Below are positions 3,255 through 34,046 of a stretch of 64,000 nt of DNA, piece by piece. Position 1 is the first letter of the stretch. Each line of letters begins with the position of its first letter. The notes under the pieces were generated by a model. That model saw only the letters and a list, made by a program, of their open reading frames with translations. It searched no databases and had not been told where the DNA came from. The stretch lies in contig NZ_VNHY01000002.1 in NCBI RefSeq assembly GCF_008124865.1, forward strand, positions 806,001 to 870,000, written 5' to 3'. Source of the DNA: Fodinibius salinus (lineage in GTDB: Bacteria > Bacteroidota > Rhodothermia > Balneolales > Balneolaceae). The position numbers were made by a program, and so were the translations under genes.

Positions 3255-6125
3255 TTAATCCATCAGGATTTCAGCTGGATGGGAAGCTGTTCGGCCGGTG
3301 CCATCCATAATTTGATGGCGACAAGAGAATCCAGGTGCGCAGATAGTAGTATCTTCCGGCAGATTGTGAAGAGCTGGGAACAGACGCAATTTGCCTATAT
3401 CCATTGATACGTCATAATGATCTTCTTCATAGCCAAAGCTGCCTGCCATGCCACAGCAGCCAGTGTCAAGAACAATAGGTTGGAACCCGGCTCGTGTCAG
3501 TAACTTTTTTATGGCCGAATTCCCGATCAGTGATTTGGTATGGCAGTGTCCATGGATATATACTTTTTCTTTTTTGGGGGATGATGAAGGCTGATTGTTT
3601 TTATTGAGGATCTCGGCAGCAAACTCTTCAAACGTAAAGCTGTGGTCGGCTACAAACTGGGCTTGTTCTAGCTGATCGTCGTCACAGAGATCAATATACT
3701 CATCCCGCAGCGTAAGAATTTCAGAAGGTTCTAGTCCGATAATAGGCAGCCCACGATCAGCAAAAGAAGTAAGCTTTGGCAAATTTTGGTTGAGAATATT
3801 TTTGGCGTGCGTGAGCATACCTTTTGAGATTTGCGGGCGGCCTACTTCATGAAAATCAGGTACCGTAACCTTATATCCATAAAATTCTAAAAACTGAACT
3901 GCCGCTTTACCAATATGTGGTTCATGATAATTAGTAAAAATATCGATGAGCAGCACGACCTCTTCTCCGGCAGCTGGATTTGTTGTGGGACGAGTGTTAA
4001 ACCAATCCATAAAGGTTTCTTCGGCAAACTGCGGTAGGTTACGGCGTTTGTCGATCCCCAAAAATTGCTGCAGTAATTCTTTAACGACTGGCTGTTTTAT
4101 TATCCAGTTGGACAGATTGGGAAACAGGTTGGCCAGAGGATACAATTTTGCGGCTTGAGCGAAAAATCGTTCACCCAGTGAAATGCCGTGTTTGTTGTGC
4201 CAGCCTTGAGTGAATTCGGCTTTCATTCGTGCCATATCCACATTGGCAGGACATTCGCTTTTACAGGCTTTGCAACTTAGGCAAAGGTCCAGTGCATCCT
4301 TCAGCTCTTCGGATTGGAAAGCCTCTTGTTGTTTGCCTGAAAAAAGTTGTCGAAATAGATTTGCACGTCCCCGGGTAGAGTCCTTTTCCTCTTTGGTAGC
4401 CATATAGCTGGGACACATGGTACCACCGCTGTCGGAAAGCTTGCGGCATACCCCCGCGCCATTGCAAAGCTCCAATGCGTTGCCAAAACTATCTTCCTTG
4501 CGCCAGTTGAACTGGGTGTCTATCTCAGGTTTTTGATAGGAGGGGGAATACCGCAGGTCTTCTTCTAATGGTTTGGGACTGGTAATTTTCCCGTAGTTGA
4601 AAATACCGTGCGTATCCCAAATTTGTTTTACTCTTTTGAGCAGTGGCATCATTTCGGAACCGAGCACTTTCTCAATATAAGGTGCCCGTGCCCGCCCGTC
4701 GCCGTGCTCTCCCGAAAGTGACCCGCAATAGCTGCAAACCAGTTCTGCAATCTCACCGGCCATTGTTTTCATCTTCTGGATACCCTCGGGTTGCTGAAGA
4801 TCAATCTGGGGACGAAGGTGTAGTTCTCCTACTGAGGCGTGAGCATAGAATACGCAGTTGGTATCATGCCGATCTAAAATTTGTTGAAAGTCGTCGATGT
4901 AGTCGGGAAGGTCGGACACGCGGACAGCGGTATCTTCACAAAACGAGGGTGTTCGTCCTTCAGAACCGAGTCCCATGAGTAAGCCGAGTCCTGCCTTTCT
5001 GAGGTTCCAGACCCGCTCTTTCTTTTTATCATCTGTGATAATGGGAGCTGAATTACTTAGTGATTGTTCTTGTAAATGACGGGCCATTTTTTGGGCCTTG
5101 CGAATCAGCTTCTGCTGATCATTGCCGTCAAATTGGATGATTAAAATACAGTGTGGTTCTCCATCCAAAAAGAAACGATTTTTGCGCTGCTCAATATTAT
5201 CTTTAGTGGCATTCAGGATAATGTGATCAACAAGCTCGGCTGCAGCGGGATCCATTTTAACGACTTCGGAAGTGGCTTCCAGCGCTTTGCGGATGGAGGA
5301 GAAGTGGGGCACCACAATGACGGATTCGGGATCCTGAGGAACGAGATTTACTTTAGCTGATGTGGTCATGGCTAGTGTACCTTCACTGCCGCAGAGTAGC
5401 TCAGCCATGTTAAATTTTCTTCCATCGGGCACAAAGGGTTGCATCTCACATAGGCGGTCAAGGGCATAGCCGGTATTACGGCGGATGATATCGGGATGTG
5501 GATAATGCTCGAGGATTTGGTCTCGATTTTCGCGAATCAAAGAAATGATTTCGCGATAGATATAACCTTCGAGCGTGTCAAGTTTTTGTTTTTTTGCTAG
5601 CTCCTGTTGTGTCAGTGGTTTAAAAGTGGCGCGAGAGCCGTCGCTCAGCACGGCGTCAATTTCGAGGATATGTTCCCGTGTGGTTTTATGCTTGATGGAG
5701 AAAATGCCGCAAGAATTGTTGCCAATCATCCCACCCAGCATGCAGCGATTGGTGGTGGCTGTATCAGGTCCAAACTCGAGGTTGTACTGATCAGTTTCAC
5801 GGTTTAATGAATCCCGAATAACACCCGGTTGCACCTGCGCCCACTGTTGTTCGCTATTAATTTGTTGGATACTGTTCATGTGCCGTCCCACATCTATGAC
5901 GATGCCTTCACCGGTTGTTTGACCTGCCAGGCTGGTACCGGCTCCCCGTGGAGTAATGGATTCCCCCTCTTTTTGAGCCTGCTTGACGATAGCAACAATA
6001 TCTTGTGTGGAAGAGGGAAAGGCTACGCCTTTTGGGAGTTCTTCGTAACTGGAGGCATCATTGGCATACAGCCGGCGTGTTTGGTCATCTGTGTGGATCT
6101 TGGGCGATACATCAGTGTTATCCAT
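3255..6125 (-). CDS. FAD-linked oxidase / Fe-S (CCG-domain) fusion oxidoreductase
   Basis: A 956-residue fusion of the D-lactate or 2-hydroxyacid dehydrogenase type (GlcD plus GlpC-like, as in YdiJ). The N-terminal part is a PCMH FAD-binding domain (TPRGAGTSLAGQ near residue 57, GGMIGNNSCG near 130). An FAD-oxidase C-terminal domain follows, with SGEHGDGRAR near 470. Next come ferredoxin-type cysteines, including CLSCKACKSECP, and then the CCG domain (HGHCH and DTGCCGMAGSFG) in the last 100 residues. It probably oxidises a D-2-hydroxyacid on the inner face of the membrane and passes electrons to quinone; the substrate is not defined. It lies 125 bp upstream of nothing co-transcribed on its 5' side, and the adjacent lhgO gene also handles a 2-hydroxyacid. 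Confidence 0.93.
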   Translation of the reverse strand: MDNTDVSPKIHTDDQTRRLYANDASSYEELPKGVAFPSSTQDIVAIVKQAQKEGESITPRGAGTSLAGQTTGEGIVIDVGRHMNSIQQINSEQQWAQVQPGVIRDSLNRETDQYNLEFGPDTATTNRCMLGGMIGNNSCGIFSIKHKTTREHILEIDAVLSDGSRATFKPLTQQELAKKQKLDTLEGYIYREIISLIRENRDQILEHYPHPDIIRRNTGYALDRLCEMQPFVPDGRKFNMAELLCGSEGTLAMTTSAKVNLVPQDPESVIVVPHFSSIRKALEATSEVVKMDPAAAELVDHIILNATKDNIEQRKNRFFLDGEPHCILIIQFDGNDQQKLIRKAQKMARHLQEQSLSNSAPIITDDKKKERVWNLRKAGLGLLMGLGSEGRTPSFCEDTAVRVSDLPDYIDDFQQILDRHDTNCVFYAHASVGELHLRPQIDLQQPEGIQKMKTMAGEIAELVCSYCGSLSGEHGDGRARAPYIEKVLGSEMMPLLKRVKQIWDTHGIFNYGKITSPKPLEEDLRYSPSYQKPEIDTQFNWRKEDSFGNALELCNGAGVCRKLSDSGGTMCPSYMATKEEKDSTRGRANLFRQLFSGKQQEAFQSEELKDALDLCLSCKACKSECPANVDMARMKAEFTQGWHNKHGISLGERFFAQAAKLYPLANLFPNLSNWIIKQPVVKELLQQFLGIDKRRNLPQFAEETFMDWFNTRPTTNPAAGEEVVLLIDIFTNYHEPHIGKAAVQFLEFYGYKVTVPDFHEVGRPQISKGMLTHAKNILNQNLPKLTSFADRGLPIIGLEPSEILTLRDEYIDLCDDDQLEQAQFVADHSFTFEEFAAEILNKNNQPSSSPKKEKVYIHGHCHTKSLIGNSAIKKLLTRAGFQPIVLDTGCCGMAGSFGYEEDHYDVSMDIGKLRLFPALHNLPEDTTICAPGFSCRHQIMDGTGRTASHPAEILMD

Positions 6126-6250
6126 AGAAACGAGGTTAGCAATATTTTATCCCCATTGCAATCTCAATAAGGAAACTACCCCTGAAGTAGTTGCAAAGAG
6201 ATAAGATCTTTCGCGGAATTTTGTAAATGCTTTGTTTTTCCGGTATTAAA

Positions 6251-7456
6251 CTACAAAGCAAATGCTTGTTCTGCCCGTTCTAAAATCTCGTCACCTATAG
6301 CCAGCCCGGCTGTGGCAGCAGGACTTGGGGCATTGAGCACGTGGATCTCATTTTTGGTCGTTTCATAGTGAAAATCGTCCAGAATCTCACCGTTCGGCTT
6401 TAATGCCATGGCTCGTACGCCTGAGGGTGATTTTTTGAGATGCTTGGGACGAATGGCAGGAATCAAATCTTGTAATCCTTTGACAAAAGCTTTTTTGGAG
6501 AATGAACGATACCACTCGTCGAGCCCCATCTTCCAGTGCTCTTGCGCTAGCTTTTGAAAGCCGGGAAAGTTGAGCGTTTCTATGGTTTCGTTCAGATTAA
6601 AGGAAAGTTTTTCATAGCCCTCACGTTCAAAAGCAAAGACAGCATTGGGACCGCATTCGATAGCACCGCTGACCATTTTGGTAAAGTGGACCCCCAAAAA
6701 GGGAAAAGCCGGATTGGGCATGGGGTAAATTAAGCCGTTCACGAAATGTTCGGCTTCGGGTTTAAGCTCAAAGTACTCACCCCGAAAAGGTACAATTTGA
6801 ATATCCGGAAATACTCCTGCTGTTTCGGCTACATGATCACTATACAGGCCTGCACAGTTAATCAAATATCGGCTTGAAAATGAGCTTTTATCGGTAGTAA
6901 CGGAAAGGTCTTTTTGTGAATTATCTATTTTTTTGACCTCTTGTCCACATGTTACGGCATTTCCTTTTTCTTCGATAAGCGACCGTAGTTTTTTACAAAC
7001 ACCCACGTAGTCAACAATGCCGGAGCAGGGCACGTGAATACCTTTTACACTGTTCGTTACATAGGGTTCAATTTCAGTAACTTCCTGTGGACTGATTTTT
7101 TTGATACCTTCAATGTCATTTATTTTGCCGGTCTCAAAAATATTGTCCAGGCGGGGGATGTCATCTTCTTCGGTAGCCACAATAACCTTTCCACATATTT
7201 CATGATCTACATCGTATTGCCGGCAAAAATCAACCAGCTGATGGCGACCTTCCACACAGTTTTTAGCGCGGTAGCTGTTGGGCTCGTAGTAGATACCTGA
7301 GTGGATGACTCCCGAATTGTTACCCGTTTGGTGAGCTGCTACTTCATCCTCTTTTTCGAGGACGAGGATATCCAAGTCGGGGAATGATTCGGATAATTTA
7401 TAGGCCGTAGATAGCCCGACAATGCCGGCACCAACGATGATGAAATCGTATGTCAT
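6251..7456 (-). CDS. lhgO: L-2-hydroxyglutarate oxidase (LhgO)
   Basis: A 401-residue FAD enzyme of the DAO family. It oxidises L-2-hydroxyglutarate to 2-oxoglutarate, clearing a metabolic side product and feeding electrons to the respiratory chain. The dinucleotide-binding motif VGAGIVGLSTA is at the N-terminus. The family-typical HQTGNNSGVIHSGIYY follows, and further typical segments are GVHFTKMVSGAIECGPNA and the C-terminal APSPAATAGLAIGD. Length and start are normal. It is transcribed toward the FAD/Fe-S oxidoreductase gene with 125 bp between, so the two could share a transcript. Both act on 2-hydroxyacids. Confidence 0.95.
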   Translation of the reverse strand: MTYDFIIVGAGIVGLSTAYKLSESFPDLDILVLEKEDEVAAHQTGNNSGVIHSGIYYEPNSYRAKNCVEGRHQLVDFCRQYDVDHEICGKVIVATEEDDIPRLDNIFETGKINDIEGIKKISPQEVTEIEPYVTNSVKGIHVPCSGIVDYVGVCKKLRSLIEEKGNAVTCGQEVKKIDNSQKDLSVTTDKSSFSSRYLINCAGLYSDHVAETAGVFPDIQIVPFRGEYFELKPEAEHFVNGLIYPMPNPAFPFLGVHFTKMVSGAIECGPNAVFAFEREGYEKLSFNLNETIETLNFPGFQKLAQEHWKMGLDEWYRSFSKKAFVKGLQDLIPAIRPKHLKKSPSGVRAMALKPNGEILDDFHYETTKNEIHVLNAPSPAATAGLAIGDEILERAEQAFAL

Positions 7457-7647
7457 GTAGAAAAGATTCTGTTCATCCCTAAAATTAGTCGCTCAAAATA
7501 CAAAAACACAGGATAGGGATAAATTAAAAAAGCTATTGCTTGTTAGTTATTGTGCTATTTCAAAAGGCCAGAGAATTTGTTCTAATGGATAGAAGAGATT
7601 TTTTGTATTTTTAAACGGTAACTTTTGACTTAATTTATTCAACAGAT

Positions 7648-8208
7648 ATGTACAAAAATAATTTTTCAAGATTATTAGTAGTATTATTATTTAGTTCTCT
7701 TTTGGGATGTAATTCTTCTGACGAATCTGCAAAAAAGAATTCATCTAACTCTAAGACAGCTACCGAATACGTTAAGACGGCTTCCTTTACTGATCTGCAG
7801 GGTAATAGTGTATCTTTCTCAGATTTTAAAGGTAAGGTAGTGTTAATAGATTTCTGGGAAACTTGGTGTAAACCTTGTATTGCAAGCTTCCCTACGATGC
7901 AAGAGTTGCAGGAAGAGTACCCTAATAAGTTTCAAATCTTAGCGGTAACACCCGGCTTTACGGATACTCGTGAAGATGCTCGTTCTTTTGCTGAAAACCA
8001 CGACTATGATTTTAATTTCCTGATAGATTCAAACAATTTACATCAAAAACTGGGTGTGCGAGGCATTCCACATAAAGTGTTTGTAGATACCGCCGGAAAG
8101 GTAATTAAACAATCCGTAGGAACTTCAGGCGCCGAAGAAGATTATAAAAAGGTTAAAAAAATTATTGAGAAACATACGGATTCGACAGGAGAGGAAAGTG
8201 AGACATGA
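7648..8208 (+). CDS. TlpA-like thioredoxin-fold lipoprotein
   Basis: A 186-residue lipoprotein with a short signal peptide and lipobox SLLGC (Cys21). A TlpA/ResA-type redoxin domain covers about residues 45-175. The active site is WCKPC (Cys74 and Cys77) and the cis-proline loop is GIPHKVF. Such proteins reduce or isomerise disulfides in the periplasm, for example during cytochrome c assembly, but the partner is unknown here. The composition is AT-richer than the next gene. It lies 108 bp before ahcY, which starts from its own leader, so a shared operon is uncertain. Confidence 0.93.
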   Translation: MYKNNFSRLLVVLLFSSLLGCNSSDESAKKNSSNSKTATEYVKTASFTDLQGNSVSFSDFKGKVVLIDFWETWCKPCIASFPTMQELQEEYPNKFQILAVTPGFTDTREDARSFAENHDYDFNFLIDSNNLHQKLGVRGIPHKVFVDTAGKVIKQSVGTSGAEEDYKKVKKIIEKHTDSTGEESET

Positions 8209-27709: not shown

Positions 27710-30157
27710 ATGATTTCAGTTTTGCCTACATTTGCCGACATTGCTTTCCCCACAGCTGTACGCCAGCCGTTTACCTATAAACTGCCTCAAGAACTTCAGG
27801 AACAGGCAGGGGTAGGTAAACGCGTTTGGGTACCCTTACAAAAACACAAAGCGGTGGGGATGGTTGTAAATATTCATCATGAAAAGCCGGACTTCAATAC
27901 TCGTCCTGTTGAGCAAGTTTTGGATGAAGAATCCATTGTATCTGATGAGATTCTACAACTGACAAAATGGATGCATCGCTTTTATTACTGCGGATGGGGA
28001 GAGGTAATACAGGCTGCCCTGCCGCATGGACTTAATTTTTCATCCGAAGAACATCTTGAGGTTGGGATGGAACAATTACCCGCTCATCTCAATGAGAAGC
28101 AGGTGGAGATTGTCAGGCAGATTAAAGAAAAAGAATCCTATCCATTAAAAGAGGCCGAAAAGCGATGGGGAGATGGCATTATCGATCAGTTGGTTCGGCA
28201 AAAAGTGTTAGGAATATGGGAAAAGCCCATTCAAAAGACGGCTCCGAAGACAGAAAAGCTATGGATGTGGACCGACCTATCATCAGTTGAAGAAGCGCGT
28301 GATCTTGTATCGCAATACAAAGAAAACGACAACTTTTATAAATGGGTACAAGCCCTGGAGGTACTTACAGAAACGGAATTGCCGGAGTTCCAAAAAGACC
28401 TGACATCCCACAGCTTGTTGGAGTACTATACTTTGCAGCGGATTTCTGAAGAAAACTTAATTACTTTTGAAGAGGTAGAACGTAACAATCTAAGCATTCG
28501 GTATGAGTATAGCCCCGATCAGCTGCATACTCTTAATGAGGAGCAACAGCAGGCCTTTACCCAAATTACATCAGTATTGGATAAAGGTGAATTTGGCAGC
28601 TTTCTGCTTTACGGAGTTACCGGCAGCGGAAAAACTGAAGTATATATCCATGCTTTAAAACGGGCACTGGAACAGGGAAAGGGTGGACTTGTGCTGGTGC
28701 CCGAAATAAGTTTAACACCACAGATTGTAGAGCGATTTTATCAAATTTTTGGGGATGAAATTGCCGTGTTGCACAGTCGTCTGACAAACCGAGAGCGTTA
28801 TGATGCGTGGCGGTCATTGCAGCAGGGAGAAAAGAGTATAGCTATTGGGGCACGCTCAGCGGTATTTGCTCCTGTCCCAAATTTAGGAATCATTATAATC
28901 GATGAAGAGCACGATGCTTCTTATAAGCAAGAAGACCCGGCACCGCGATATCACGGTCGGGATGTGGCTATTATGCGTGCTCATATTAACGATGCAACAG
29001 TTGTAATGGGCTCGGCGACGCCGAGCATGGTATCATTGCAGGGGAGCCGAACTGGAAAAAGCAAACTGCTTACACTTGCCGAACGACCTTTGGATTCTAC
29101 CATGCCAGAGGTACAGGTGCTGGATCTAAAGCAGTACCGTTCAGCGATGCGGGGTCCTATTGCTGTACCTCTTTATCAGGCAACAAAAGAAGCACTTGCA
29201 GAAGATGAGCAGGCGATATTTTTATACAATCGTCGTGGCTTTTCTTCTTATCTGCAGTGCCAACATTGTGGTGAAATACCGGGATGTCCCAATTGTTCGG
29301 TAAGTCTGACATTTCACAAATCAAAAAAACAGCTGCGTTGTCATTACTGTGGATATTCGCAGCGGCAGCCCAGACAGTGCAGTGAATGTGGACATGAAGT
29401 GGTTACGGCTCAAGGCAGCGGCACACAGCAGCTTGAAGAGCAAATAACAGAATTGTTTCCGCATGCCGAAACGCTGCGCATGGACTTTGATACAACATCA
29501 GGTAAAAACGCACATGCCAATATTCTCAATGCCTTTGGGCGCAAAGAGGCAGATATTTTAGTAGGTACACAGATCGTGGGTAAAGGGCTTGATTTCCCGG
29601 ATGTGACGGTGGTGGGGGTTATTGATGCCGATACGGAGCTGGCCTTCCCATCTTTTCGGTCGGGGGAGCGTATGTATCAGTTGTTGAGCCAGGTAGCAGG
29701 ACGTTCGGGCCGGGCTGAAAAAGAAGGTAAAGTGTTTTTTCAAACATGGCAGCCCGATCACCCGGCAATACAAAAGGCCCAAAAGCATGATTATGAAGCT
29801 TTTGCGGAACAAGAACTTGACCAGCGAAAACAACTTCAGTACCCGCCTTTTTCGCGCATTATCCGTTTTATCTTTAAAGGGAAAAAAGAACGCAGGGTAC
29901 AACAGGTAGCACAGGTATTTACCGAAAGCCTCATCAAAGTATTAGGGCAATCCGGTCCGGTACTGGGTCCATCGCCTGCTGCTATTGGAAAAATGCAGAA
30001 TTATTATCGATGGGAGACATTTATCAAAATAAAACCCGGGAACGGAGCCGGTGCCATTGAGAAGCTTATTGATGACGTGTTTGATGATTATGACGAGCAT
30101 AAACCCCAAGGGGGGAGTTCTGTTCGAATTAATGTAAATGTAGATGCGCTGGAATAA
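27710..30157 (+). CDS. priA: Primosomal replication protein PriA (helicase)
   Basis: An 815-residue superfamily 2 helicase that reloads the replisome at stalled forks. It has an N-terminal DNA-binding region (FAYKL-type start, here PFTYKLPQEL), Walker A GVTGSGKT at about residue 302, and the DEEH box at about 398 with the following YKQEDPAPRYHGRDVA. Zinc-binding cysteine pairs fall between about 517 and 561 (CQHCG, CPNC, CHYCG, CSECG). The C-terminal helicase blocks are GTQIVGKGLDFPDV and QVAGRSGRAEKEG. Length and start are normal. It stands alone, with 128 bp before the next gene. Confidence 0.98.
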   Translation: MISVLPTFADIAFPTAVRQPFTYKLPQELQEQAGVGKRVWVPLQKHKAVGMVVNIHHEKPDFNTRPVEQVLDEESIVSDEILQLTKWMHRFYYCGWGEVIQAALPHGLNFSSEEHLEVGMEQLPAHLNEKQVEIVRQIKEKESYPLKEAEKRWGDGIIDQLVRQKVLGIWEKPIQKTAPKTEKLWMWTDLSSVEEARDLVSQYKENDNFYKWVQALEVLTETELPEFQKDLTSHSLLEYYTLQRISEENLITFEEVERNNLSIRYEYSPDQLHTLNEEQQQAFTQITSVLDKGEFGSFLLYGVTGSGKTEVYIHALKRALEQGKGGLVLVPEISLTPQIVERFYQIFGDEIAVLHSRLTNRERYDAWRSLQQGEKSIAIGARSAVFAPVPNLGIIIIDEEHDASYKQEDPAPRYHGRDVAIMRAHINDATVVMGSATPSMVSLQGSRTGKSKLLTLAERPLDSTMPEVQVLDLKQYRSAMRGPIAVPLYQATKEALAEDEQAIFLYNRRGFSSYLQCQHCGEIPGCPNCSVSLTFHKSKKQLRCHYCGYSQRQPRQCSECGHEVVTAQGSGTQQLEEQITELFPHAETLRMDFDTTSGKNAHANILNAFGRKEADILVGTQIVGKGLDFPDVTVVGVIDADTELAFPSFRSGERMYQLLSQVAGRSGRAEKEGKVFFQTWQPDHPAIQKAQKHDYEAFAEQELDQRKQLQYPPFSRIIRFIFKGKKERRVQQVAQVFTESLIKVLGQSGPVLGPSPAAIGKMQNYYRWETFIKIKPGNGAGAIEKLIDDVFDDYDEHKPQGGSSVRINVNVDALE

Positions 30158-30285: not shown

Positions 30286-32229
30286 ATGGGTGAAGCAAGG
30301 GTAAAATTAGCCGACAGCCAGGAGGAAGTTCAGCAGTTTATGAAGTATGTGCTGAAAGACCTGCGGGCGATGGATCGTATGTTGGAAGAGGATGATTGGT
30401 TCGAGACAGACCCTATCCGTATTGGAGCCGAGCAGGAACTTTGCTTGGTCGATCAGCATGCCAAAGCTTGGCCCAAGGCAATGGAAATTTTGGATCAGCT
30501 GCAGGACGGTGATAATAGCCCATATACTACGGAGTTTGCTAAATTTAATTTGGAGATTAATCTTAGTCCGCTCGAATTTACCGGTGATTGCTTATCGCAG
30601 ATGGAAGAAAATTTGCAGGGCCATATTGATGAAGTGCGTTCTGTAACGGAAGAAATGGGTGGAGAGCTATTGTTGACAGGCATTCTGCCAACAATTAGAA
30701 AGATGGATGTGGATTTAAAGAACTTGACTCCATTGCAACGGTATCGTGCGCTATGCGAAGCGATCAACAAGCTGCGCAGCGAAAATTTCGATCTCCGCAT
30801 CCAGGGAATGGACGAACTGCTGATGAAGTTTGATTCTCCCCTTCTTGAGGCTTGTAATACTGGTTTCCAGGTGCACTTGCAGGTTGGTCCCGATGAGTTT
30901 GTGCCCAAGTATAATATTGCTCAGTTGATAACGGCTCCTGTATTGGCATGTACAGTCGGTTCACCCATCTTGTTTGGCAAACGGCTTTGGAATGAAACAC
31001 GTATTGCACTTTTTCAACAATCTGTCGATACACGTACTGTGGGTGATCACCTGCGTGAAAGCAGTCCACGGGTAACATTTGGTAATAAATGGGTGGATGA
31101 AAGTATCCTCGAAATATTCCAAGAAGATACTGCACGTTACCGCGTGATGCTGAGTTCTGAGGTAACTGAAGATGTGGGAAAGTTGTTGGATGAAGGCACG
31201 CCACCGGCTCTTAAAGCTCTGCAGGTTCATAACGGAACGGTGTATCGATGGAATCGACCCTGTTACGGTGTCATCGACGGGAAGGCACATCTGCGGATAG
31301 AAAATCGTGTATTTCCGTCTGGTCCCACGGTCACTGATGAAATGGCGAACTCCGCTTTTTGGCTGGGGCTCATGAATCAGATGGAGGAGTATTATCCGAA
31401 TGTATCCGAGAAAATGGACTTTGATGATGCGCGTATGAACTTTGTGGCTGCCTCTAAGCTGGGGTTGGATACCAAGTTTCGTTGGTTTGGTGATAAGCGT
31501 GTCAATGCTGTTGATTTAATTACGGAGGAGCTGCTGCCTATTGCACGTGAAGGACTTGAAAAGGCAGATATTATTGATCAGGATATTACGGAATATCTCG
31601 AAATTATTGAGGAGCGGGTTACCGCGGGTCAGACTCCTTCTTATTGGATGCTTAATAATTATGCCTCACTGATGAAAGAGCATGATTCCAAAGAACAGAC
31701 GCTGGCAGCTATTACTACGGCCATGATCAAAAATCAGAAAAAAGGAGAGCCGGTGCATAAATGGGGACGAGCACGTATGGAAGACTTGGAGCATTGGAAG
31801 CCTTCGAGCCTGATTGTGGAAGAGTTTATGACAACTGACCTGTTTACAGTACAAAAAGATGATATTTTAGAATTTGTAGCAAATCTGATTGACTGGCGCA
31901 GCATACGGTATGTGCCGGTAGAGAATGATAAAAAGCACTTGGTGGGGCTTGTTACCATGCGAATGCTTTTTAATGAATACAGCAATGCCGTTAACCATGA
32001 TGAAGAGGTCGTGCAGTCGGTCGAAGATTTTATGATCAAGAACCCGATTACTGTACATCCCGAGGCATCGATTATGGAGGCGATGGAAATAATGGATAGC
32101 CAACAAATTGGATGCTTGCCGGTAGTAAAAAATAACAGATTAGTTGGAATTATTACCGAGCAAAATTACATGACAACAGTAGCACGGCTACTTAAACAAT
32201 TACATGCGAACGATACATCTGATGAATGA
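30286..32229 (+). CDS. GCS2-type carboxylate-amine (glutamate-cysteine) ligase fused to a CBS pair
   Basis: A 647-residue fusion. Residues about 25-450 carry glutamate-cysteine ligase 2 features: IGAEQELCLVD with the metal-binding glutamates, TTEFAKFNLEINLSP, GFQVHLQV and SPILFGKRLWNETR. Residues about 507-562 and 579-637 are two CBS repeats (FMTTDLFTVQKDD with HLVGLVTM; FMIKNPITVHPEAS with LVGIITEQNY), which usually bind adenine nucleotides and gate an enzyme. The family joins an amino acid to an amine or Cys using ATP; gamma-glutamylcysteine synthesis is possible but not proven. It overlaps the next gene, a deacylase-like enzyme, by 8 bp, so the two are translationally coupled. Confidence 0.9.
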   Translation: MGEARVKLADSQEEVQQFMKYVLKDLRAMDRMLEEDDWFETDPIRIGAEQELCLVDQHAKAWPKAMEILDQLQDGDNSPYTTEFAKFNLEINLSPLEFTGDCLSQMEENLQGHIDEVRSVTEEMGGELLLTGILPTIRKMDVDLKNLTPLQRYRALCEAINKLRSENFDLRIQGMDELLMKFDSPLLEACNTGFQVHLQVGPDEFVPKYNIAQLITAPVLACTVGSPILFGKRLWNETRIALFQQSVDTRTVGDHLRESSPRVTFGNKWVDESILEIFQEDTARYRVMLSSEVTEDVGKLLDEGTPPALKALQVHNGTVYRWNRPCYGVIDGKAHLRIENRVFPSGPTVTDEMANSAFWLGLMNQMEEYYPNVSEKMDFDDARMNFVAASKLGLDTKFRWFGDKRVNAVDLITEELLPIAREGLEKADIIDQDITEYLEIIEERVTAGQTPSYWMLNNYASLMKEHDSKEQTLAAITTAMIKNQKKGEPVHKWGRARMEDLEHWKPSSLIVEEFMTTDLFTVQKDDILEFVANLIDWRSIRYVPVENDKKHLVGLVTMRMLFNEYSNAVNHDEEVVQSVEDFMIKNPITVHPEASIMEAMEIMDSQQIGCLPVVKNNRLVGIITEQNYMTTVARLLKQLHANDTSDE

Positions 32230-33175
32230 AGCTTTAGCAAAAGATAGCAAATCTGACGTTTCAGAGGAACGGATTATTGGATCTATAGAAGGACTTCAGC
32301 CCGGCCCAACTGTAATTGTGCTGGGGGGCGTGCATGGCAATGAGCCGGCGGGAGTGCGGGCTATCTCCAGTGTATTAGATACACTCAAAGATGTTGAATC
32401 GCCCATCCGCGGGCAACTGTTGGCGCTGCGGGGCAATATTAAAGCACTCGAACAAAATGTGCGATATATTGATGAGGATATGAACCGTATCTGGTTCCCG
32501 TCTATCCTGCAAGACATTCGAAATACACCGGAATCACAGCTGCAGTCGAGCGAGCGCAGGGAGGTTAAACAGCTGCTTTCGGTTTTGGATGATATCAACA
32601 ACCAATCTGAGAGCCCCGTTATTTTAGCTGATATTCATACTTTTTCGGCTGAGGGCTGGATGTTTACTATCACCAGCTCAGACCCCCGGCAGCGAAAACT
32701 GCTGTCCAATCTGCATGTACCTATGGTGTTTGGGATTGAGAAAACACTTCGCGGTACGGCGTTGGGCTATTATCAGAAGCAGGGATTTATATCATTTGGG
32801 CTGGAGGGTGGTCAGCATACCAACGATATGACGGCCTATAATACTACGGCATCGCTAATGTTGTTGCTACAGGCAGTGGGCTGTATTGAAGAGCAGTATG
32901 TTGATGAGTTGAAGGAATATGAAAAGCACCTACAGTCGCACACAAAATATTTACCGACAGAGACTAAGCTTATTTATCAGCATATTATAGAGCCCGGTGA
33001 TGAGTTTCGGATGCGGCCCGGCTACAAGAATTTTCAGCATATCAAAAAAGGAGAGTGGCTGGCTAGCGACAAGGATGGTAAAATTATTGCCGATTGTGAT
33101 GGCTATATCCTGATGCCCCTTTATCAGGATCAGGGCGATGACGGTTTTTTCATCATTATTGAGCACGAGGGGTAA
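32222..33175 (+). CDS. Succinylglutamate desuccinylase/aspartoacylase-family hydrolase
   Basis: A 317-residue zinc hydrolase of the AstE/AspA family (M14-like fold) from the ATG at 32222; an ATG at 32204 is also in frame but lies deeper in the upstream gene. Zinc ligands fit GGVHGNEPAG (His and Glu) and DIHTFSAEG (His), with a catalytic Glu in FGLEGGQH. Family members remove N-acyl groups from amino acids or cleave related amides. Its start ATGAATGA overlaps the stop of the ligase-CBS gene by 8 bp, which suggests the pair makes and breaks, or transfers, the same amide. Substrate unknown. Confidence 0.9.
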   Translation: MNEALAKDSKSDVSEERIIGSIEGLQPGPTVIVLGGVHGNEPAGVRAISSVLDTLKDVESPIRGQLLALRGNIKALEQNVRYIDEDMNRIWFPSILQDIRNTPESQLQSSERREVKQLLSVLDDINNQSESPVILADIHTFSAEGWMFTITSSDPRQRKLLSNLHVPMVFGIEKTLRGTALGYYQKQGFISFGLEGGQHTNDMTAYNTTASLMLLLQAVGCIEEQYVDELKEYEKHLQSHTKYLPTETKLIYQHIIEPGDEFRMRPGYKNFQHIKKGEWLASDKDGKIIADCDGYILMPLYQDQGDDGFFIIIEHEG

Positions 33176-33193: not shown

Positions 33194-33233
33194 GGGTGTA
33201 GATTCCAAATAAAAATAGCAAAGGCAGTTGGTT

Positions 33234-34046
33234 ATGGAAGATTATCAATTTGTTGATGGTACGCGGCTTTCATCGGTTATTGAGTCGCTTATCTTTGCCA
33301 GCCCAGAACCGATATCAGAGCAAAAAATTTGTGAAGTCATTGCTAAAGGTGAAGAGAATCTCGGTTTGGAGACTGACGCTATTGCTCCTTTTGTTGAAAA
33401 GCTGAATCAACGCTATGAAGAAAACGGTTTGGCTTTTCGGATAGCAAATGTAGGCGGGGGATATACCTTCTCTACGCGCAAGCGCTTTGATCCCTGGCTT
33501 AGTATATTTCAGCACGAAAATGCCTATCGAAAGCTATCACAGTCGGCTATTGAAACACTTGCAATTGTAGCCTATAAGCAGCCGGTGACCAAGCCTGAGG
33601 TGGATGATATTCGTGGTGTAGATTCAGGATATATTCTGCGCCAGCTGCTTGAAAAGGTGTTAGTTGAAGTATCCGGCCGCCTGGATGCACCCGGAAAGCC
33701 TCTGTTATATGAGACTACCCAACACTTTTTAAAACACTTTGGCATTAATTCTATTGACGAGTTGCCCAAACCTCGCGAAATTGAAGAAATTCTCAGAGAT
33801 GATGACATGGCCGAACACCGGCAGTTCCTGTTTGATCGTCAGCTCGAACTTAAGGATTTGCAAGAAAAAGTGGATGATGAGGATACGGCCGAGACGGCGC
33901 TTTCATTGATTGAAGCCGTTGAAGATATGGATGAGGAAGAGGTGCCGGATTTGGAGGAATATACCGCCGAAGAGCTGCTACTTGATGAAGACCAAGAAGA
34001 ACAGGAAGAATCACAATCTGATACAAACAGTACTGAAGAAGAATAA
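33234..34046 (+). CDS. scpB: Segregation and condensation protein B
   Basis: A 270-residue protein from the ATG at 33234 (MEDYQFVDG). ScpB dimers bind ScpA and Smc in the condensin complex that organises chromosomes. Two winged-helix domains span residues about 10-180; the family block LSQSAIETLAIVAYKQPVTKPEVDDIRGVDS is clear (read here in short pieces: ETLAIVAYKQPVT, EVDDIRGVDS). The C-terminal 90 residues are strongly acidic (many Glu and Asp) and probably disordered. The rluB gene follows after 4 bp, a common scpB-rluB arrangement. The scpA gene is not in the window. Confidence 0.95.
   Translation: MEDYQFVDGTRLSSVIESLIFASPEPISEQKICEVIAKGEENLGLETDAIAPFVEKLNQRYEENGLAFRIANVGGGYTFSTRKRFDPWLSIFQHENAYRKLSQSAIETLAIVAYKQPVTKPEVDDIRGVDSGYILRQLLEKVLVEVSGRLDAPGKPLLYETTQHFLKHFGINSIDELPKPREIEEILRDDDMAEHRQFLFDRQLELKDLQEKVDDEDTAETALSLIEAVEDMDEEEVPDLEEYTAEELLLDEDQEEQEESQSDTNSTEEE

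Follow-up and report, generated by a model that had tools for sequence, protein, structure and literature searches.

A recurrent gene pair of a CBS-bearing GCS2-fold ligase and an AstE/AspA-type zinc hydrolase in Bacteroidota and Planctomycetota

Ligases of the GCS2 fold make gamma-glutamyl amides, and hydrolases of the AstE fold use an Asn-Arg pair to bind the alpha-carboxylate left free on the amine half of their substrates. What might a ligase of the first kind and a hydrolase of the second do side by side? We analyzed a stretch of 64,000 nucleotides from Fodinibius salinus (contig NZ_VNHY01000002.1, positions 806,001 to 870,000 of the forward strand; hereafter the window), in which a gene for a GCS2-fold carboxylate-amine ligase carrying a CBS pair overlaps a gene for an AstE/AspA-type zinc hydrolase. 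Both families are known, and we did not find their combination described: a literature search yielded no paper on the ligase-hydrolase pair, and an earlier description is possible, for example in the 2009 amidoligase survey of Iyer and co-workers. Because the pair recurs in other genomes, the pairing goes beyond local chance, and coupling of the two genes is well supported.

The upstream gene (30286..32229, forward strand; 647 residues) was delimited by its open reading frame, Pfam and a predicted model. A sequence-only reading had taken it for a GCS2-type ligase fused to a CBS pair, and this is borne out by Pfam scores above cut-off and by a model matching both the YbdK/glutamate-cysteine ligase and the CBS folds. 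The ligase domain (residues 1-500; 30286..31785) contains the conserved blocks GAEQE, NLEIN, WNR and RIENR and scores 26.8 bits against Pfam GCS2 (PF04107; cut-off 21), a match that spans residues 47-162 only and profile positions 2-113 of 291; a Chlorobiaceae-type relative reaches 40.8 bits. The CBS pair (about residues 505-640; 31798..32205), defined by Pfam, model and alignment, is matched by Pfam as two stretches totaling 87.1 bits, and a phmmer search with the ligase returned CBS matches only. The AlphaFold model of the ligase, which had an alignment of relatives as input (predicted local distance difference test, pLDDT, 86.9; predicted template modeling score, pTM, 0.87), superimposes over residues 20-485 on YbdK (1r8g_B; Z 35.6, root mean square deviation, rmsd, 2.6, 351 residues aligned), and it also matches plant glutamate-cysteine ligase (2gwc_B; Z 31.5, rmsd 2.6, 381 aligned) and the yeast enzyme (Z 28.1). 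Across 1tt4, 1r8g, 2gwc and 3ig5 the Z scores are 28-36, which is the GCS2/glutamate-cysteine ligase fold. From about residue 505 to 640 the model matches CBS proteins, for example AcuB solved with AMP, ADP, ATP or Ap4A.

Residue conservation was assessed in 178 ligases from Bacteroidota, Planctomycetota and other groups, with the short Chlorobiaceae-type forms excluded. In this set, whose rows were chosen by profiles in a way that favors invariance, G47, E49, E51, E90, R152, H197, Q199, R239, R262, W322, R324, R337 and R341 are invariant, as are N88 and E339 apart from one X each; N92 (163/178) and N323 (175/178) are not. The Glu and Arg residues in this list are thus shared by all 178 relatives, and the profile alignment is too unreliable for mapping them onto solved glutamate-cysteine ligase or YbdK structures. 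The motif T-x-x-D/N marks the nucleotide site in CBS pairs. In the second CBS domain, Asp or Asn stands three residues past Thr or Ser in 158 of the 178 ligases; in the first, Asp occupies the motif position in 13, so that it is mostly not kept. We infer from these motifs that the CBS pair may sense an adenine nucleotide.

The downstream gene (32222..33175, alternative start 32204, forward strand) was assigned by Pfam, model and alignment. Its open reading frame, 32204-33175, has its first ATG at 32204, from which it encodes 323 residues, and an internal ATG at 32222; the 8-bp overlap with the ligase gene reported earlier therefore holds for the start at 32222, and becomes 26 bp if translation begins at 32204. 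Pfam AstE_AspA_cat (PF24827) is matched with 63.6 bits against a cut-off of 25. The AlphaFold model, again with relatives aligned as input (pLDDT 91.8), matches succinylglutamate desuccinylases and aspartoacylases at Z 20-24: Z is 24.1 for 3cdx_A and 22.9 for AstE (1yw6_B), with 3cdx, 2g9d and 1yw6 spanning 22.9-24.1, and it is 23.5 for DoeB and 20.7 for CphZ (8ein_B; rmsd 4.3, 278 aligned). Numbered from 32204, residues H44, E47, R87, D92, N94, R95, H145 and E201 are invariant in 87 of 87 hydrolases, rows likewise chosen by profiles in a way that favors invariance. By homology, H44, E47 and H145 would bind zinc, E201 would be the catalytic residue, and R87, N94 and R95 would hold the substrate carboxylate. 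An hhalign alignment to Escherichia coli AstE (residues 26-153, counted from 32222) covers all of the active-site residues except the catalytic Glu. The earlier assignment to the AstE/AspA-type zinc hydrolases thus stands, resting on Pfam, the predicted fold, the zinc motif HxxE...H, the catalytic Glu and the carboxylate-binding Asn-Arg pair.

How often do the two genes travel together? We sampled 148 Bacteroidota genomes, calling the ligase at 200 bits or more and a close hydrolase at 150 bits or more. The ligase is present in 51 genomes, in 41 of them matched over the CBS pair and in 10 (family f16) over the ligase domain only; we regard f16 as Chlorobiaceae-like because all 15 of its genomes tested encode the FMO protein. 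A close hydrolase is present in 27 genomes, 26 of which also have the ligase, and in 24 of the 27 it lies directly downstream of the ligase (19/19 in the window's family, 4/4 ligase genomes in f19 and 1/2 in f27). In f16, a divergent hydrolase, about 20% identical to that of the window, lies directly downstream of the ligase in nine of ten ligase genomes, and the hydrolase is therefore adjacent in 33 of the 51 ligase-bearing genomes. The window's own genome has one GCS2 match and one hydrolase match. Similarly, among 294 Planctomycetota genomes (hydrolase calls at E up to 1e-40), 66 have the ligase, 48 the hydrolase and 46 both; in the two hydrolase genomes without a ligase match, the hydrolase sits at a contig edge with its upstream side cut off. 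The 68 Planctomycetota match rows correspond to 65 inspected places, three fragments in G391 and G408 having been left out, and at 35 of the 65 the hydrolase follows the ligase directly on the same strand, a count in which unseen cases are misses (at the first 30 places about 1 kb beyond the ligase was visible, and L213 ends with the ligase). One-sided Fisher tests of co-occurrence give p 8e-14 for Bacteroidota, p 2e-4 when the window's own family is excluded, and p 2.5e-35 for Planctomycetota; kinship is uncorrected in all three, and they overstate the evidence because it is ignored. The sequence-only reading had named rare co-occurrence in other genomes as the outcome that would speak against functional coupling, and in both phyla we observed the opposite.

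On the ligase tree, adjacency switches state at least 23 times; 169 of 178 rows entered this count, 72 of them adjacent and 97 not, after tandem first ligases and five contig-end rows had been excluded. An alternative scoring, in which both tandem ligases count as adjacent and eight rows, not all of them contig ends, are unscored, gives the same 23 changes. Thus, adjacency is not a single inherited event. From a scan of GTDB genomes we kept the best 80 of 592 confirmed loci. These 80 include Fodinibius, Gracilimonas, Rhodohalobacter, Roseivirga, Saprospira and many uncultured Bacteroidota, together with records titled Planctomycetota, Phycisphaerae, Verrucomicrobia, KSB1, Acidobacteriota, Thermoanaerobaculales, Gemmatimonadota and Myxococcales, and the nearest ligase relatives among them are Balneolaceae. 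Adjacent loci among the 80 comprise eight from Balneolaceae, L097 and L098 among them, several from Bacteroidetes/Cytophagales, and one each from Chlorobi (L111), Phycisphaerae (L153) and Gemmatimonadota (L165); in L108 the hydrolase follows the ligase across a stretch of N, and in L099 it follows a 126-residue open reading frame. None of the records titled Saprospiraceae among these 80 has an adjacent hydrolase, and in L144 and L146 the hydrolase is four genes away. Before counting we dropped duplicates (L180-L183 and L186, which are the places L245-L249, and L097 and L098, contigs already present as G026 and G119) and the artefactual or gapped L108 and L165. The open reading frame called in L044 is antisense, and the ligase there rests on the genome-sample matches; from L052 and L172 no ligase reading frame was obtained.

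A further pattern emerges when the hydrolases are compared with the ligases they adjoin. The main-type ligases of 22 loci from the window's family form one clade (100* on a quick tree), and they adjoin hydrolases of two kinds: a short subtype in 13 loci, the window's included, and a long subtype with about 70 extra C-terminal residues in nine. The C-terminal extension of the long subtype is carried, for example, in L054, L067, L083 and L153. The short and long hydrolases do not form one clade (approximately unbiased test, p 1.9e-6; log-likelihood lower by 67.6), a grouping that an earlier tree had suggested for testing; the long ones instead group with the hydrolases of f19 and f27. Placed on the ligase tree, the long-hydrolase label requires three changes, two of them forced by starred branches, and in four of the nine long-subtype loci a second ligase, of the f2/f19/f27 type, stands just before the long hydrolase. 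Our favored reading is that a ligase-hydrolase unit arrived, the resident hydrolase was replaced and the second ligase was then lost in some genomes; an ancestral double set thinned by differential loss would explain the pattern as well. Since one ligase type adjoins two distant hydrolases, one shared reaction is favored.

What could that reaction be? We give an even chance to the proposal that the two enzymes form a module, one making and the other breaking an amide on the same small molecule, with the ligase under adenine-nucleotide control. We infer for this module gamma-glutamyl chemistry, opposed rather than sequential action, and control by nucleotide. The ligase would use ATP to activate a carboxylate, for which the gamma-carboxylate of glutamate, used by its structural relatives, is the likeliest candidate. 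The amine that it couples to this group would most likely belong to an amino acid or a short peptide whose alpha-carboxylate is free. The downstream zinc hydrolase would then cleave the ligase product or a close derivative, because enzymes of the AstE-type fold, AstE, aspartoacylase and CphZ among them, recognize the amine half by its free carboxylate. Finally, the CBS pair would sense an adenine nucleotide and brake the ligase so that the two enzymes do not run together. Opposed action on one compound is favored over a sequential pathway because a gamma-glutamyl amino acid suits both folds and because CphZ cleaves an isopeptide.

A number of observations weigh against the make-and-break proposal. 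Among the ligase-bearing Bacteroidota genomes, 16 of 51 have no close hydrolase (four of the 16 have weaker AstE-like matches of at most 61 bits) and two have an unlinked one (G037 and G064), a result with which a profile search agrees; in Planctomycetota, 20 of 66 ligase genomes have no hydrolase and 11 have it on another contig. In the best 80 of the 592 loci the hydrolase is directly downstream in 19, several loci ending at contig edges. A survey of genomes for the pair, which the sequence-only reading had called for, thus upholds recurrent co-occurrence and adjacency in two phyla but not a hydrolase wherever there is a ligase. Other partners also occur beside the Planctomycetota ligases: an ATP-grasp protein lies upstream at 6 of the 65 places (L185, L186, L198, L204, where it has 415 residues, L205, and L219, about 1.8 kb off), with the hydrolase also present in L186; a nickel superoxide dismutase lies directly downstream of the CBS-ligase at five (L236, L237, L238, L240 and L242), with a weakly alpha/beta-hydrolase-like gene upstream; and a carbon-nitrogen hydrolase lies downstream at one. 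Pfam identified these partners in one ATP-grasp, two dismutase and the one carbon-nitrogen hydrolase case, and phmmer in the rest. The role of the ligase may therefore vary. Likewise, in Bacteroidota genome G053, which has no GCS2-type match, the hydrolase adjoins a GshB-type ligase, and so the hydrolase family also adjoins an ATP-driven ligase of another fold. At the level of sequence, a profile of the ligase domain reaches no solved GCS2 structure, and hhalign of the ligase against E. coli YbdK is not significant (E 0.13). Nor did we find a natural ligase-hydrolase fusion, both apparent cases being artefacts: the 1242-residue reading frame of L165 contains just the ligase (residues 603-1236), its frame being open a long way upstream, and the hydrolase there is a separate overlapping reading frame, and the 867-residue frame of L108 spans both genes but crosses the stretch of N, which shows gene order and not fusion.

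The alternative that survives best is a sequential pathway, in which the ligase adds glutamate to an amino acid that the hydrolase has released from an N-acyl precursor (alternatively, the hydrolase trims the product), both enzymes working toward one end product. The same co-occurrence and adjacency data serve it, and AstE, DoeB and aspartoacylase, which are N-deacylases, are among the nearest folds. The ATP-grasp protein upstream of the CBS-ligase at the six Planctomycetota places is possibly a second ligation step, standing as a second building step would. However, the hydrolase is nested within the distribution of the ligase and often absent, and so does not behave as an obligatory step, and a control domain on the ligase suits a two-way switch at least equally. 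We consider a sequential pathway rather unlikely.

Could the ligase instead be a plain gamma-glutamylcysteine ligase that serves thiol protection beside an unrelated neighbor? In haloarchaea a GCS2 enzyme produces the gamma-glutamylcysteine that the cells use, and the GCS2 fold is in keeping with this idea, as is the dismutase at five of the 65 Planctomycetota places, which hints at redox stress. Yet against the NCBIfam glutamate-cysteine ligase models the window's ligase scores 37.1 bits where 409 are required (NF010043), 29.2 against 463.15 (TIGR01436) and 17.5 against 371 (EgtA). A GshB partner was not found in the window's genome: its single match to PF02955 (GshB), which at 71.6 bits exceeds the cut-off, is RimK, with 359.3 bits against a cut-off of 331 for NF007764 and 72 against 299 for the glutathione synthase model TIGR01380. 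In the 18 other genomes of the window's family, the best PF02955 matches reach at most 80.5 bits, and GshB-like matches of 173-228 bits occur elsewhere in the 148-genome sample. The bacillithiol gene family BshC is present in 147 of the 148 genomes, and its spread suggests that bacillithiol is the thiol of these bacteria. On the NCBIfam scores and the missing GshB partner we reject a plain GshA or glutathione reading, which the sequence-only reading had raised as a way in which it might fail, and the co-occurrence shows that the neighbor is not unrelated; gamma-glutamylcysteine for thiol protection is accordingly improbable. More improbable still is a writer-eraser role, in which a protein or peptide would receive a glutamyl-type modification from one enzyme and lose it to the other, comparable to PafA/Dop or to the tubulin glutamylases with the CCP deglutamylases: the ligase model does match Dop (Z 19.1) and PafA (Z 18.0) and the hydrolase model CCP5 (Z 15.6), but small-molecule enzymes match far better (YbdK, Z 35.6; AstE type, Z 23-24).

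Several neighboring genes were considered as further parts of the module and set aside. Upstream of the pair lies a PriA helicase gene (27710..30157, forward strand) and downstream a ScpB gene (33228..34046, forward strand), both lineage-specific and of interest as context only; PriA, ScpB, a RluB-like gene and an alpha/beta hydrolase are common only within much of the window's family. In L086 (G053, contig C30), genes for a MATCAP-family protein (PF08014), a GshB-type ATP-grasp protein and an AstE-type hydrolase are consecutive at 3879-7786. MATCAP occurs in nine of the 148 Bacteroidota genomes, all nine with strong GshB-like matches, and in family f19 it is found in 4/4 ligase genomes and in 2/10 without the ligase; MATCAP and the GshB-type ATP-grasp protein were rejected as module parts because the remaining 47 genomes with the ligase in this sample have no MATCAP. 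Weak AstE-like matches adjoin RimK/GshB-type ATP-grasp genes in five genomes (G064 C11, G072 C21, G081 C1, G119 C246 and G029 C1), which can be read as a further ligase-hydrolase pairing. A gene of about 175 residues lies divergently upstream of the ligase in 25 loci (L060, L062, L115, L119, L125 and others), many of them in records titled Saprospiraceae, and the one member scanned has no Pfam match.

Returning to the make-and-break module, we advance more tentatively a wider view in which it is a widespread cycle, shared by Bacteroidota, Planctomycetota and others and present in a CBS-less form in Chlorobiaceae-type bacteria. The CBS-controlled ligase would build a gamma-glutamyl metabolite when adenine nucleotides allow it, and a dedicated isopeptide hydrolase would split it into its parts again, so that the metabolite would act reversibly as a store, cap or signal governed by the energy state of the cell. 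If this is true, several bacterial phyla have in common an uncharacterized amide metabolite that is served by a dedicated hydrolase and by a dedicated synthetase containing a nucleotide sensor. Given the pair, its conserved residues and two hydrolase subtypes that are interchangeable, the question of the substrate is directly testable with two purified proteins. Labels such as glutamate-cysteine ligase or succinylglutamate desuccinylase would be unsafe for these genes.

Finally, how does the pair compare with the closest known systems? YbdK and the GCS2 ligases (PF04107) share the fold of the ligase domain (Z 35.6, Pfam above cut-off), whereas the window's ligase is 14% identical to YbdK in the structural alignment and has a longer domain, a CBS pair and a hydrolase partner. 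Plant-type glutamate-cysteine ligase (2gwc) is likewise similar in fold (Z 31.5; 20% identity over 381 residues), but the window's ligase falls far under the equivalog cut-off (29.2 versus 463 bits) and its genome has no GshB that we could find. The hydrolase resembles AstE and aspartoacylase in fold, in the HGNE, R-x(4)-D-x-N-R and D-x-H motifs and in the conserved Glu, yet it lies below their curated cut-offs (45.9 versus 305.65 bits for TIGR03242, 57.6 versus 170 for NF003706 and 52.4 versus 180 for NF002601), and none of the neighbors scanned by Pfam is an ast gene. CphZ shares with it an AstE-type fold (Z 20.7) that hydrolyzes an isopeptide between two amino acids; a report on CphZ describes it as an isoaspartyl dipeptidase releasing Arg and Asp (JBC 2025, PMC12661447). 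CphZ, however, serves cyanophycin breakdown and has no GCS2 ligase neighbor. PafA and Dop offer the idea of a make-and-break pair as well as a distant relation to the ligase fold (Z 18-19); they share one fold between them, whereas the pair in the window is built from two different folds.

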